Part shown: positions 39,499-47,632 of the stretch, piece by piece
Layout: every line of letters starts with the position of its first letter
Numbering within the stretch: the first letter of the stretch is position 1
Source of the DNA: Treponema sp.
GTDB lineage: Bacteria > Spirochaetota > Spirochaetia > Treponematales > Breznakiellaceae
Assembly (NCBI GenBank): GCA_031266875.1
Contig: JAISAE010000080.1
Coordinates: 21,417-85,416 of the forward strand
DNA length: 64,000 nt
Reading direction: 5' to 3'
Position numbers and translations under genes: made by a program
Notes under the pieces: generated by a model
The model's database searches: none
Told to the model about the DNA's origin: nothing
What the model saw: only the letters and a program-made list of their open reading frames with translations

Positions 39499-39703
39499 CT
39501 ATTCATACAGACAACACAATAACGAGAAAACACAAAACACCTGCAACAGTGTTTTGAAAACAAGAGTATAGGAACACTTATATAAAGGAAGAAAGAAAGT
39601 GAATTTTCTAGAGATACATTGCAATTGTCCCATGGGGGGGGGGGGGGGGGCAGGCTATAGACAGATCTCTAACACTATACGAAATATGAGGCTTATTTAA
39701 CAT
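39499..39703 (-). other. Short ORF(s) with perfect SD whose frame depends on a C17 tract (putative phase-variable leader)
   Basis: ATG 39703 preceded by AAGGAGGG (39709..39716); C17 on the minus strand (G17 at 39634..39650 on +). Confidence 0.5.
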
Positions 39704-39834: not shown

Positions 39835-40244
39835 GCGTTTTACTAAAAAATGTGAAAGAGAATTGATAGATTCATCGGTATAGGTCAAAGCGAACCTTGC
39901 ACCGGTGGCGTAGTTCCTGGGCCTATCACCTTGCTGGCCCAGGTCAAAGAGAGCGGCAGCTTGTCGCGCATGAAAGGCCAGTTCATGCGCGGGCTAAGGT
40001 TGTCGCTCTCTTTTTAGTCTACCGCGTACAGACGGCACGGTGTTTCTGCCCGGCCATCACGGAGCGGTTGTCATAGCGCCGCGCTCCATGAGGCTTCCCG
40101 CAGCAAGGACTTCGCCCGCTCACTTGCTGGGCGAAGTGAAGAAATTTGCCCCCGACGCCTATAAGGGCGGGGACAACAAAATCATTATCACAGGCATTGC
40201 TCTTTCGATTGGCCGGGAGCGGTGAGCTTAAACATTAGGAGGAA

Positions 40245-40885
40245 ATGCTGCCTCTGGAGTTTCTACACACATCTCTGGAAGTTCTACACATATCTCTGGA
40301 GTTTCCAAAGCTGCCTCTGGAGTTTCTACACACAGCTCTAGAAATTCTACACATAGCTCTGAAAACTCTACACACATCTCTGAAGTTTCCAAAGCCATCT
40401 CTGGAAGCTCTACACACACCCTGGAGTTTCTACACACAGCTTTTGAGTTTCCAAAGCCGTATCTGGAAACTCTACACACATCTCTGGAGGTTTCAAAGCT
40501 ACCTCTGGAAGTGCTACACACATCTCTGAAAGATCTACACATATCTCTGGAGTTTCTACATACACCTCTGGAGTTTCCAAAGACGTCTCTGGAAGTTCTA
40601 CACATACCTTTGGAGTTTATAAAGCCATCTCTGGAGATTCTACATATACCTCTAGAAGTTCTACACACAGCTTTTTGAGTTTCCAAAGCCGTATCTGGAA
40701 GCTCTACACATATCTCTGGAGGTTCCAAAGCCACATCTGGAGTTTCTACACACATCTCTGGAGGTTCCAAAGCCACATCTGGAAGTGCTACACATATCTC
40801 TGGAAGTGCTAAAATTGGCTTGAAAAGGCTTGGAGATGGATGTATACTTTTCAAAGTTGGCTTTGGAAGTGCTAAAGGTGGCTTG
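40245..40885. repeat. Tandem array 3, 21-bp period, consensus ~TCTACACACATCTCTGGAAGT, about 29 units
   Basis: Read directly; begins at an ATG preceded by AGGAGGA. Confidence 0.95.
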
Positions 40886-42637: not shown

Positions 42638-43954
42638 CTACCAGCGGGTCTTCTCAGCCCAGAGTCCGAGTGCGGGGTTGGGAACAAAGAACACGCGCTC
42701 TCCATTGGGCAAGGTATTCCAGCCATAGCTAAGGGTGTTGATGTCATAACAGGCAAGAGCGGCGTTAAGGTCGCCCCACTCAAAGCCGGCGCTTTCGATT
42801 TCAGCGCGGCTCAGGGCTGGTCCCGGGCAATAGCGCACGGTGAACCGGCCTTCGCTTGAGCCGTGGATCAGGTGGGCCGCTGCGCTGAGGCTACTGGCAA
42901 GTTCCGTGTCGTGGAGCACTTTGTCTTGTATAACCTTAGCTGGCCGGTAACCATGTTTACGGATAAGCGCGTCAATGTCTTTGTCCTCACCAAATCGCTC
43001 AAGCCCGGGCGCGATAATGAGTAGCTCACCGCCGTCGGCCATTGCCATGCGGGTACGGTAGATTGCCTTGTTGCCCAGCCATGTTGTGCGGAACTCGTCG
43101 CTTTCAAGGTAGACCACGGCCTTTTTCACCGGCTCATCCAGAATATCCACGTTGAGCTCACGCGCCAGCGCCGCCGCCTGCTCAAAACATTCGCGGCCAA
43201 AGCCCACAAACAGGCCGCGCACCGCCAGTGAGCCACGCGGTTTGCCGGTGGCAGCGATTTCCGCGTCGCTGCGGGCGCTCACCACAGTCAAGGCCCAGAG
43301 TATAGGCGGCAGGGCGCTACCGAAACGCTTGACGCCTTCGTCGAACATGGCCCTGACCGGCGTGTCGGTTCTGCCCATCATGCGTTCCATACCATAAGAC
43401 GCGCCTACAAAGTGGCTTTTGTCGATGGCCTCTTTGCCGCCGGTTCCCACGAAGATGTTCTTAGCATGGTTCGCCATACCCACTACTTCATGCGGCACTA
43501 CCTGTCCAATAGAAACAATGAGCGAAAAACCGCCGTCTCTAAGCATTTTGTTCACCTGCACTGGCCAGTCATAACGCGCCGCGCCCTCAGACGCCTGTTC
43601 CACCCACTCAGCGGGCAGGCGTCCAAGTTCCACCACGTCATTGCGCCAGTCATGGACAAAAATTTTTTCAAGGGGCGTCTGTGGAAACATACGGCGCAGC
43701 TCCGCCTCAGTCATAGGCATGTGCGTACCGAGCGCCGGCAGAACCGCACCCAGCCGTTTACCCAGCTCCCGCGCCGCGATGTCCGTCAAAAAGCCGGCCC
43801 GCGAATGAAAGCGTGTAATATCCGGCGGCAGAACCAGCACGGGTCCGGTTTTTGCCCCAGTCTCAAGCGCCTTTGCCAGCGCTTTTGAAAATAACTCATC
43901 GAGATCCTCGTCAGACAGGTCTAACGCGGCTCCGCCTTTAGCTATATAAGTCAT
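42638..43954 (-). CDS. LarA-like lactate racemase-domain protein (DUF2088)
   Basis: 'LVLPPDITRFHSRAGFLTDIAARELG', 'LPALGTHMPMTEAELRRMFP'. Confidence 0.85.
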   Translation of the reverse strand: MTYIAKGGAALDLSDEDLDELFSKALAKALETGAKTGPVLVLPPDITRFHSRAGFLTDIAARELGKRLGAVLPALGTHMPMTEAELRRMFPQTPLEKIFVHDWRNDVVELGRLPAEWVEQASEGAARYDWPVQVNKMLRDGGFSLIVSIGQVVPHEVVGMANHAKNIFVGTGGKEAIDKSHFVGASYGMERMMGRTDTPVRAMFDEGVKRFGSALPPILWALTVVSARSDAEIAATGKPRGSLAVRGLFVGFGRECFEQAAALARELNVDILDEPVKKAVVYLESDEFRTTWLGNKAIYRTRMAMADGGELLIIAPGLERFGEDKDIDALIRKHGYRPAKVIQDKVLHDTELASSLSAAAHLIHGSSEGRFTVRYCPGPALSRAEIESAGFEWGDLNAALACYDINTLSYGWNTLPNGERVFFVPNPALGLWAEKTRW

Positions 43955-44068
43955 AGAATCTCCTATTTTATGGATACTTGCGTAGATAGCATAATCTTTC
44001 CAATTTTTGTTGACAACCCATTTATAGCGGATTAAGCTTATGGCAATAAAATTTTAGGAGGATCCTTT

Positions 44069-45718
44069 ATGAAAAAATTGGAAGTTACGCTACTCACGCT
44101 GACGGTCTGCATATTTGTGGGTTGTAGTAACAAAAGTAATCAGACCGCGCAAAATAGTGTTTCAGGGGGGGGGGGGGTCGTTAGATCAAACGTCACTACC
44201 GCGCAAAGTGGACTGAATTTTACTGGTTACCCCATGAATGCAACGGATCAGACCATAACTTGGTTCGCCAGTAACGGTTATTTGCCGAATACGGCGTATG
44301 GTTCGGCCAAAGAATCGCCATTTCACTCCGGATTGCAGGATATGCTTGGTGTGAAAATTGATTGGCAGTTCCCGGTTACCGGCACTGATACCAATCAGGC
44401 GTTCAATCTTGTCATGGCGAATGAGAAGCTGCCGGACGTCATTTTTCATGGTCTTATGAAAGACGCGCAACGGTACATGGACGAAGGTACTATCTACGAC
44501 CTGACCCCATACATTCAGCAGTGGGCGCCAAACTACTACAAATGGCTCCAGACCAATCCCGAATACGACCGTACATTCAAAACCGACGAAGGCAAGTATT
44601 ATGGTTTTGGTTTCTTCCGCGAGGCTGGTGGCTGGAACGACAGCTATCTGGGGCCGGTGGTACGGAAAGACTGGCTCGACGAATGTGGTCTGCCCATACC
44701 GGAAACCATCGGAGACTGGGACAAGACGCTGCGGGCATTCAAGGACCGCTATGGAGCCGTGCTGAGTTTTGCGCGTTCCCGCGTGGCTGACTACGGAAGC
44801 GGCATCTCTGGCGCATTTGGAGCGTATACCATGCTTACCTTCAGGCTTTATGTTGACGATAACCACAAGATTCAGTCGGCAACGTCGCAGCCTCAGTGGA
44901 GGGATTACCTTAGCAAGCTGAACGAGTGGTGGCGCGACGGCCTGCTGGACCAGGACTTTATGACCAATGACGACACAATGACGCGAACCAATGCCTTAAA
45001 CGGCAAGATGGGCATATCCATTACCTCAATGGGACAGCTCTCCAACTGGGTGAATGATGCTGAAAGCTCTGGTAACGGCGCTCAGTGGATCGGGCTTCAG
45101 TACCCCCATGGCGATGATGGTACATTGAGCATGATTCCGGGTGGTTATGGCATTGGAACCAACGCCGCAGTCATTACCACAAGCTGTTCTCAAGAGAAGC
45201 TGGAACTCGTGATGAGAGCGCTCGACTACGCCTACAGCGACGAAGGCAATCTGTACTGGAACTTTGGTAAGCAGGGTGTGTCGTGGGAGTATGACGCGAA
45301 TGGGCAGCCCGCCTATCTGCCACTCGTTACAAATGATCCTGATGGATTAAACAACGCCATCGACAAGTTCGGCGGCTCAACATGGAGCGGTAACTGCATT
45401 CAGGCGACGCTGTTGCTGTACCTCAAGAACACTCAGCAAGCCATTGACGCCAACGACCTGTGGTTCTACCCGAATGAGGCGGTAAGCGCCAAGTGGACCG
45501 TGCCGCCGGGCGTTACACTGACGCCGGACGAGAGTAGTCGTGCCGCTGAACTGCAAAATACCATCAGCACCTATTCCAATGAAATGGCGATCAAGTTCAT
45601 CACTGGTCAGGAGCCGTTCAGTAACTTCGATAGCTTTGTCGCACGGGTCAACCAGATGGGCATGCCGGAACTGCTGAACATTAACCAGACCGCTTACGAC
45701 CGGTATCTCTCCCGTTAA
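44069..45718 (+). CDS. Extracellular solute-binding lipoprotein (LplA-like) containing an in-frame G13 tract
   Basis: Lipobox ICIFVGCSN; SBP; upstream of two LplB/LplC-type permeases; G13 at 44165..44177 (SGGGGVV). Confidence 0.85.
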   Translation: MKKLEVTLLTLTVCIFVGCSNKSNQTAQNSVSGGGGVVRSNVTTAQSGLNFTGYPMNATDQTITWFASNGYLPNTAYGSAKESPFHSGLQDMLGVKIDWQFPVTGTDTNQAFNLVMANEKLPDVIFHGLMKDAQRYMDEGTIYDLTPYIQQWAPNYYKWLQTNPEYDRTFKTDEGKYYGFGFFREAGGWNDSYLGPVVRKDWLDECGLPIPETIGDWDKTLRAFKDRYGAVLSFARSRVADYGSGISGAFGAYTMLTFRLYVDDNHKIQSATSQPQWRDYLSKLNEWWRDGLLDQDFMTNDDTMTRTNALNGKMGISITSMGQLSNWVNDAESSGNGAQWIGLQYPHGDDGTLSMIPGGYGIGTNAAVITTSCSQEKLELVMRALDYAYSDEGNLYWNFGKQGVSWEYDANGQPAYLPLVTNDPDGLNNAIDKFGGSTWSGNCIQATLLLYLKNTQQAIDANDLWFYPNEAVSAKWTVPPGVTLTPDESSRAAELQNTISTYSNEMAIKFITGQEPFSNFDSFVARVNQMGMPELLNINQTAYDRYLSR

Positions 45719-45796
45719 AGGCGGGTGTTTGATTAGCAATGATTAGGAGTAAGTTGTTTCAGTTAATGGCTTACTCCACTTTTATTAGGAGAAACT

Positions 45797-46738
45797 ATGG
45801 CTAAAGCAAATGTCTCAATATCCCATGTGCCGTTAAAGACTATGCTAGCAAGGGACTTCGCGCTGAATAAGTGGAAGTACCTGCTTATCCTGCCGGTGCT
45901 GGTGTACTTCGCGTTGTTTGTATACAAGCCGATGTATGGTCTTATCATCGCGTTCAAGGACTATCGCCCAAACTTGGGCTTTGATCGCAGCCGCTGGGTT
46001 GGGCTTAAACACTTCATCGACTTCTTTAACGATGTATATTTCTTCCGTTTGCTGAGGAATACGCTATCGATCAGCCTTTTAAGCATATTGTTCGGCTTCC
46101 CTGCCCCTATACTACTGGCGCTTCTGCTCAATGAAATCCAGAACACCAGTTTCAAAAAGACCGTACAGACCATAACCTATATGCCGTACTTCATCTCAAT
46201 GGTCGTGGTGGCATCGCTGATTCGTACCTACAGCGCCAGTAACGGTATCTTTGCGCAGATTGCGATCATGCTTGGTGGTGAGGGTAAGAACTACCTTATG
46301 CACAATCAGTATTTCTACCCAATCTACGTTATATCCGACATCTGGCAGGGCATTGGCTGGAATTCCATCATTTACCTCGCGGCGCTCACCGGCATTGATC
46401 AGGAGCAGTACGAAGCGGCGCGTATTGATGGCGCGGGACGTATTCGGCGCATATTCAGCGTTACCCTGCCAAACCTTCTGCCTACCATCATGGTTCTGTT
46501 CATCCTGCGTATGGGTGGCATACTCAACGTAGGCTTTGAGAAGATCATCCTGCTGTACAACGAAGGTATTTACGAGGTGGCTGACGTCATTTCGACCTAT
46601 GTCTACCGGCGGGGCATTATTCAGGCCGCGTTCAGCTATGCTTCGGCGGTTGGCTTGTTCAACTCGCTGGTGAATGTGGCGTTTCTGGTTGCAGCGAACA
46701 CGCTCAGCAAGAAATTTACCGAGTCAAGTCTGTTTTAA
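45797..46738 (+). CDS. ABC transporter permease (LplB-like)
   Basis: 'YEAARIDGAGRIRRIFSVTLPNLLPTIMVLFIL'. Confidence 0.9.
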   Translation: MAKANVSISHVPLKTMLARDFALNKWKYLLILPVLVYFALFVYKPMYGLIIAFKDYRPNLGFDRSRWVGLKHFIDFFNDVYFFRLLRNTLSISLLSILFGFPAPILLALLLNEIQNTSFKKTVQTITYMPYFISMVVVASLIRTYSASNGIFAQIAIMLGGEGKNYLMHNQYFYPIYVISDIWQGIGWNSIIYLAALTGIDQEQYEAARIDGAGRIRRIFSVTLPNLLPTIMVLFILRMGGILNVGFEKIILLYNEGIYEVADVISTYVYRRGIIQAAFSYASAVGLFNSLVNVAFLVAANTLSKKFTESSLF

Positions 46739-46750
46739 GAGGCCAAACAT

Positions 46751-47632
46751 ATGCTGTATAAAAAATCATCTGGCGATATTGCGTTTGATGTCATTAACAT
46801 GATCATTATGCTCTTTCTGGTGTTCGTTACGCTCTATCCCATGTACTATGTGGTGGTTGCATCGGTAACGGACAACATCGCATTGCTGGCGACGCCCGGT
46901 TTTCTGTGGTACCCTAAGGGCTTCACGCTCGGCGCGTTTCGGCTCGCCTTCACCCACCCCCTGCTGATAAGCGGTTACAAGAACATTCTTATTATTATGG
47001 TGGTGTCGCTGTTCATTAACATCTTTCTGTCATTGTTCACGGCCTTCTTCCTTGCCTCTAAGAACATGCTGTTCAAGAAACCAGTGTTGTTTATCATCCT
47101 CTTTACCATGTTCTTTCGCGGCGGCATGATTCCTGACTATCTCAATATCAGGAGTCTGCATCTGTACAACACGCTCTGGGCGCTGATACTGCCAGGCGCG
47201 ATCAGTGTGTACAACTGCATTATTTATCGCACGGCCATCGAAACTATTCCTGACAGCCTCTCGGAGTCGGCGCGCATCGACGGCGCGAATGACATAACAA
47301 TACTGTTCCGTATCATCTTCCCACTGATCAAGCCGACAACCGTTGTGTTACTGCTCTATTATGGCATTGGACATTGGAATAGCTGGTTTCCCGCTTCGAT
47401 CTATATGCAGGATAACTACAAACTGCCGATTCAGAATGTGCTGCGGGCAATTCTGATAGCAAATTCAAACATACTGAACTCAGCCGCAACGGAAACCGAC
47501 CAGATCAACCAGTTCGCCGAGTCCATCAAATACGCTGCTATCGTCATTACCACTGTGCCGATTCTGTTTGTGTACCCGTTCCTGCAACGTTACTTCGTGA
47601 AGGGCGTGATGCTTGGCGCGGTGAAGGGGTGA
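46751..47632 (+). CDS. ABC transporter permease (LplC-like)
   Basis: 'LSESARIDGANDITILFRIIFPLIKPTTVVLLLYYGIGHWN'. Confidence 0.9.
   Translation: MLYKKSSGDIAFDVINMIIMLFLVFVTLYPMYYVVVASVTDNIALLATPGFLWYPKGFTLGAFRLAFTHPLLISGYKNILIIMVVSLFINIFLSLFTAFFLASKNMLFKKPVLFIILFTMFFRGGMIPDYLNIRSLHLYNTLWALILPGAISVYNCIIYRTAIETIPDSLSESARIDGANDITILFRIIFPLIKPTTVVLLLYYGIGHWNSWFPASIYMQDNYKLPIQNVLRAILIANSNILNSAATETDQINQFAESIKYAAIVITTVPILFVYPFLQRYFVKGVMLGAVKG

Follow-up and report, generated by a model that had tools for sequence, protein, structure and literature searches.

A candidate poly-G frame switch in a carbohydrate-binding lipoprotein gene of Treponema and its counterparts in other sugar-uptake genes

RESULTS

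Gene content of the locus

The window, meaning the whole stretch of 64,000 nucleotides of Treponema DNA that was analysed, carries on its plus strand a gene for a 549-aa lipoprotein, SBP1 (44069-45718). It is preceded by an AGGAGGA ribosome-binding site (44056-44062) and by the sequence TTGACA (44010-44015), which is invariant in an alignment of four species and may act as a -35-like element; a consensus promoter scan listed no plus-strand promoter at this site. According to spirochaete lipobox rules, the first part of the translation (44069-44125) reads as a signal peptide with the lipobox IFVGC, in which Cys19 would be the lipid attachment site. Downstream of SBP1, on the same strand, a domain search identified two ABC permeases of the BPD_transp_1 type, one MalF/UgpA-like (45797-46738) and one MalG/UgpE-like (46751-47632), and this permease pair adjoins SBP1 in relatives as well. 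The gap between SBP1 and the first permease contains a 13-pair stem-loop with a T-rich tail (45746-45777, plus strand). It came up in a terminator scan as a possible partial terminator, a weak candidate since two terminator-like sites were found compared with 1.6 in shuffled sequences. A nickel-dependent putative hexonate epimerase (LarA-like; NF052594, E 3.9e-171; PF09861) is encoded divergently on the minus strand (42638-43954).

Among PDB sequences, SBP1 matches AlgQ1/AlgQ2 and other family-1 oligosaccharide-binding proteins (1y3n, 1j1n, 5gub; also 5xs8) with E values of 1e-21 to 5e-25 over approximately residues 101-546. It exceeds the PF01547 cut-off in a profile search of the genome; a direct hmmscan of the protein listed no domain. 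These matches place SBP1, as far as its sequence tells, among the family-1 carbohydrate solute-binding proteins (SBPs) of ABC importers. The original prediction had spoken of a sugar or peptide SBP, and the AlgQ-type relatives, the MalF/MalG-like permeases and the divergent epimerase narrow this to a carbohydrate. Because of the AlgQ relatives and the hexonate epimerase neighbour, uronic or hexonic acid units are probably part of the carbohydrate substrate; AlgQ1/AlgQ2 and SBP1 are assigned to one family by sequence. We know of no comparable tract in the genes of AlgQ1/AlgQ2 or of other family-1 oligosaccharide-binding proteins.

The G13 tract and its reading frames

A homopolymer of exactly 13 G residues lies at 44165-44177 (plus strand) in the context TTTCA-G13-TCGTTAGA, as confirmed by a sequence check. 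It begins 96 bp into the open reading frame and forms codons 33-36. As assembled, the gene is in the ON frame and the translation reads MKKLEVTLLTLTVCIFVGC-SNKSNQTAQNSVS-GGGG-VVRSN. The tract had been described as lying just after the lipobox; it is indeed downstream of it, not directly but 14 residues past Cys19. Translation of the downstream sequence in the alternative frames gave GR* for G14, with the stop TAG at 44182-44184, and SLDQTSLPRKVD* for G12, with the stop TGA at 44214-44216 (both plus strand). Each single-base slip therefore terminates translation within 12 codons. An in-frame G13 that is ON as sequenced, an immediate stop with G14 and a stop after about 12 codons with G12 had all been predicted, and all three agree with the 549-aa reading frame and its alternatives. 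Tract lengths here and below come from short-read metagenome-assembled genomes (MAGs), and each may be off by one base.

AlphaFold2 gives residues 1-48 a pLDDT below 50. The encoded glycines thus lie in a disordered tether (44126-44212) that follows the lipid anchor, and the gain or loss of a few of them there should be harmless to SBP1. A promoter switch of the tpr/tp0126 type, in which poly-G acts as promoter spacer, was ruled out for SBP1, as the tract is located downstream of the start codon and inside the reading frame. Folding of 44120-44230 as single-stranded DNA, in a calculation that does not include G-quadruplexes, showed nothing special (z -0.99).

Long G/C runs in the window and the genome

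The string G8 has 16 overlapping matches in the window compared with a shuffle mean of 1.6, and none of 100 shuffles reached 16. G/C runs of 7-12 nucleotides are absent, and there is a single run each of 13 and 17 nucleotides; A/T runs reach at most 9. In the whole genome (G000; 2.6 Mb in 112 contigs) we counted 31 G/C runs of at least 9 nucleotides; 29 of these are at least 11 long, whereas the base composition would lead one to expect about 0.8. Of these 29, two are G84 runs located at contig ends; they are artefacts of the reads and were left out of the biological interpretation. Nine of the 31 runs are found no more than 120 bp from the end of a contig, where about 1% would be expected (contigs with runs near their ends: C42, C53, C63, C69, C70, C78, C89 and C104). 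Apart from the two G84 runs, these may reflect assembly breaks at variable tracts. A chance origin of the SBP1 tract was ruled out by the shuffles, by the expectation from base composition and by the presence of a tract in the same codons of four species.

The run of 17 in the window is an intergenic G17 (39634-39650). In minus-strand orientation, 623 bp separate it from a nucleotide-sugar dehydrogenase-like gene located downstream, and its flanking sequences are similar to those around a C13 tract in a sister species (L172 in G002). Another intergenic segment (40240-40880) consists of imperfect repeats of a TCTGGAGTTTCTACACACA-type unit that give rise to spurious repetitive open reading frames. 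Two members of the family (G010 and G015) have more than 50 tracts of exactly 11 G/C each, far above most relatives.

Conservation of the SBP1 tract

The nearest named orthologs of SBP1 are found in Treponema MAGs with the isolate codes Pcl387, Gsp477, Nm470, Kf353 and Im510, which we take to be of termite-gut origin judging by the style of the codes. A comparison of four species, with one genome per species and lengths known to ±1 base, showed the tract in the same codons throughout: G13 and ON in the window, G13 and ON in L061, G14 and ON in L062, and G12 and out of frame in L063. The four loci are approximately 91-93% identical in DNA, and SBP1 has a dS of 0.29-0.42. Between the out-of-frame allele L063 (genome G003) and the window, dN/dS is 0.043, which indicates a working gene under strong purifying selection and no pseudogene. 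Decay to pseudogenes was ruled out for the OFF alleles of SBP1 and of a second SBP gene, SBP2, with dN/dS values of 0.03-0.05.

Other orthologs have an altered tract, upstream poly-C or neither. L106 (75% identical) has an interrupted GGGGGAGGGGG in the same linker. L064 and L065 (69-71%) lack an in-gene tract and carry C11 and C15 approximately 220-300 bp upstream of the gene, and a 46% relative, L107, has C18 upstream. The ortholog L080 has neither an in-gene tract nor upstream poly-C.

In-gene tracts in other uptake genes

SBP2 (PF01547; G000:C1:60931) carries G16 directly after the signal peptide and is out of frame. Its counterpart in the sister genome G002 has G19 and is also out of frame, and dN/dS between these two OFF alleles is 0.038. 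SBP2 of G001 and of G004 has no in-gene tract; G004 instead has C13 upstream. G004 further contains a DUF3502-type SBP with G12 within the signal peptide (OFF) and an SBP_bac_5 protein with G12 in the middle of the gene (ON). Two AraC-type regulators of G001 have an in-frame G14 in a linker or loop, and one of them adjoins an LplA-like SBP gene.

Outside the genus, tract loci were taken from G054 and G158, which represent two other genera, and 45 tracts lay away from the fetched ends. In-gene G tracts in SBPs of this survey were G20 in L257 (ON), G13 in L264 (ON), G16 in L271 (OFF), G16 in SBP2 (OFF) and G17 in SBP2b (OFF); in addition, SBP2 of G158 has G25 (ON). The survey also contained a PTS sugar permease with G17 between its domains (ON), an ABC permease with G11 in the gene and an AraC-type regulator with G21 (OFF).

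Altogether, in-gene tracts occur in eight different SBP genes from three Treponema genera; two of these genes are paralogs with 53% identity. The seven besides SBP1 carry G12-G25, in six cases in or beside the signal peptide or tether. Seven SBP alleles are in frame (SBP1 in three species, SBP2 with G25, SBP_bac_5, L257 and L264) and seven are out of frame (SBP1 in one species, three of SBP2, SBP2b, SBP3 and L271), as expected of switches caught in either state. In the genus, tracts well inside the gene were seen in six annotated gene groups, four of which are SBPs. With an SBP share of 2-3% of genes (PF01547, 34 matches in G000, plus other SBP families; gene number estimated from genome size), the binomial probability is 2e-6 to 1e-5. 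This enrichment test is a post hoc one; the pattern was repeated in the two other genera. Use of poly-G on an SBP was originally judged unusual; in this lineage SBPs are the commonest in-gene poly-G target found.

Upstream poly-C tracts

The remaining tracts of the genus are mainly C runs, read on the coding strand, that precede genes for chemoreceptors, lipoproteins, a CsgG/outer-membrane-type protein and an OMP-like family by 50-280 bp. They resemble the promoter or leader tracts of tprL and tp0126 in T. pallidum (PMC7864442) and the tlpB tract of H. pylori (PMC8295292). Such upstream poly-C is a second class of tract and does not explain the in-gene G tracts. Methyl-accepting chemotaxis protein genes of four species (L195, L133, L140, L162 and L173) have C14-C22 at 50-222 bp upstream, an arrangement reminiscent of H. 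pylori tlpB. Elsewhere in G000 (L187:3188-6382, contig C9), tandem cytidylyltransferase-type genes each end in or are separated by C14-C16, followed by a repeated spacer.

Clustering of the tract flanks returned mostly orthologs, together with one module that is common to the OMP-like family and SBP2 of G004. This module, TTATAGTTTAGATTA-poly-C-TGTARRGTTATAAATTTCAT, lies upstream of the OMP-like genes and of G004 SBP2 (L137, L154, L160, L183 and L161; genomes G001, G004 and G002), as if a poly-C regulatory cassette had spread. The hexamer CTAACG stands directly before the C run, in minus-strand sense, at six tracts (L131, L134, L136 and L139 in G001, L174 in G002, L105 in G003), among 195 genomes only in the genus of the window; the reversed control pattern gave three scattered matches. 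At the SBP1 tract of the window, the minus strand reads CTAACGA (44178-44184). The recurrence of this hexamer might hint at a dispersed mobile element.

DISCUSSION

A probable slippage switch in SBP1

Our data make it very probable that G13 is a slippage switch, a translational contingency device that turns the uptake of one sugar on and off in single cells. Slipped-strand mispairing at G13 during replication would add or remove G residues. G13, and by frame also G10 and G16 (congruent with 13 modulo 3), would yield the full-length lipoprotein with a few tether glycines, while G12 or G14 would end translation early and leave the cell with no binding protein and, presumably, no uptake via the SBP1 transporter. 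Polar loss of the two permeases may accompany the OFF state. A clone would therefore comprise cells in which uptake by one carbohydrate transporter is reversibly ON or OFF, and tract lengths would be mixed within the population. The benefit would most likely be bet-hedging over diet-derived substrates, or else hiding an exposed lipoprotein from phages.

The locus shows what characterises an SSR translational phase-variable locus: a homopolymer near the 5' end that is beyond chance and whose slips lead to premature stops, and, between species, changes of length with both in-frame and out-of-frame alleles, the OFF alleles being intact and under selection. Phase variation of the SBP, as originally predicted, is in keeping with the contingency logic of the frames, with conservation in four species that includes an out-of-frame allele under purifying selection, and with the recurrence in further SBPs; for the behaviour of single populations, it would be an expectation. 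Of 17 poly-G tracts of at least 8 nucleotides in T. pallidum, 76% varied in length (PMC7864442).

Alternative explanations

Neutral expansion is unlikely. Under it, the lineage would be biased to long G/C runs that are tolerated in Gly-rich tethers, so that slippage is real and switching a by-product. Poly-G is abundant in some relatives (G010 and G015), tract-free orthologs exist (L080 and SBP2 of G001), and the in-gene tracts are located in linkers, loops or signal peptides; as Gly-rich tethers tolerate G runs, placement alone is no proof of selection for switching. However, the in-gene tracts concentrate on sugar uptake and regulators in three genera (the eight SBP genes, the PTS, the permease and three AraC types), poly-C stands upstream of the same genes in other species, and purifying selection persists on out-of-frame alleles.

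Less probable still is a switch that serves the divergent gene. Seen from the minus strand, the SBP1 tract is a C13 approximately 210 bp upstream of the hexonate epimerase and could act there, the effect on SBP1 being secondary or both genes being switched. The distance from tract to epimerase start is 144-213 bp in the four species, in a genus where coding-strand C tracts upstream of genes predominate. On the other hand, the frame effect on SBP1 is unavoidable, and a divergent gene at such a distance is lacking for the tracts of SBP2, SBP3 and the mid-gene SBP_bac_5, which leaves the coding effect as the common factor.

It is highly improbable that the run encodes only a fixed flexible linker whose length has no regulatory use. 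The tract is in frame in the window and two relatives, and the 75% ortholog has its interrupted GGGGGAGGGGG at the same place, both of which would suit a tether. A linker needs no perfect homopolymer, yet only pure GGG codons are used, and single-base length shifts between species and the seven out-of-frame SBP alleles rule this explanation out. A sequencing or assembly artefact, of which the two G84 runs are clear cases and to which the excess of runs near contig ends might point, has next to no probability here, as the tract lies in the interior of an 85-kb contig, flanked by coding sequence, and tracts in the same codons of four independent MAGs rule the artefact out; the exact length is known to ±1 base.

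These sequences are best read as phase variation at the level of translation, by slipped-strand mispairing, that affects carbohydrate uptake and is in use across the lineage. The same device appears to have been used repeatedly on sugar-uptake genes and AraC-type regulators in termite-gut treponemes. A broader version, to which we give an even chance, is a combinatorial, slippage-driven uptake menu: SBPs, a PTS permease, an ABC permease and AraC-type regulators would carry independent poly-G switches that split a clone into sugar diets, and in the course of evolution the switch of a given gene would change from in-gene poly-G to upstream poly-C or back.

Relation to known systems

Most of what is known about phase variation by homopolymers concerns the surface antigens of pathogens. 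The closest precedent is the p78 gene of Mycoplasma fermentans (Theiss and Wise 1997), which encodes a surface lipoprotein of an ABC operon and, as cited in PMC2831843 and PMC3711429, likewise has a homopolymer near its 5' end in which a one-base change inactivates the gene. As a lipoprotein of an ABC operon, P78 qualifies the original view that an SBP, rather than an adhesin, would be an unusual target; the P78 tract is a poly-A of 7 in a single mollicute gene, whereas here poly-G of 12-25 occurs in many sugar SBPs of gut spirochaetes. The poly-G loci of T. pallidum (tprE/G/J, tprL and tp0126; PMC7864442) belong to the same broad lineage and also use poly-G of variable length as a switch. The tracts studied there act transcriptionally in promoters of outer-membrane proteins, in contrast to a tract in the coding sequence of an uptake protein. 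The contingency genes of Neisseria, Campylobacter and Helicobacter share in-gene poly-G/C with ON and OFF frames, but their targets are, in the available parts of PMC5084427 and PMC6321876, mostly surface structures and the enzymes for them, and ABC SBPs were not found among the targets in those parts. Phase-variable nutrient use links our locus to the invertible nutrient-acquisition loci of Bacteroides and to glpK of M. tuberculosis, although the former switch by DNA inversion and the latter encodes a glycerol kinase and not an uptake protein (PMC11868660). A 2025 review names nutrient acquisition as a notable newer target of phase variation, via DNA inversion in Bacteroides, and regards phase-variation surveys as biased toward pathogens and commensals (PMC11868660).

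In the literature searched, mostly outside subscription journals, we found no description of poly-G switching in termite treponemes or in a set of sugar-uptake genes. The mechanism is established (Mycoplasma P78; promoter poly-G of T. pallidum); the target class and the scale in a gut symbiont look new within this literature. One practical consequence is a warning against taking SBP genes of such MAGs for pseudogenes when they are out of frame. For the biology of these spirochaetes, our findings suggest that a symbiont lineage puts slippage switches repeatedly on its sugar-uptake genes, which would make it a testable case of genetic bet-hedging over diet.
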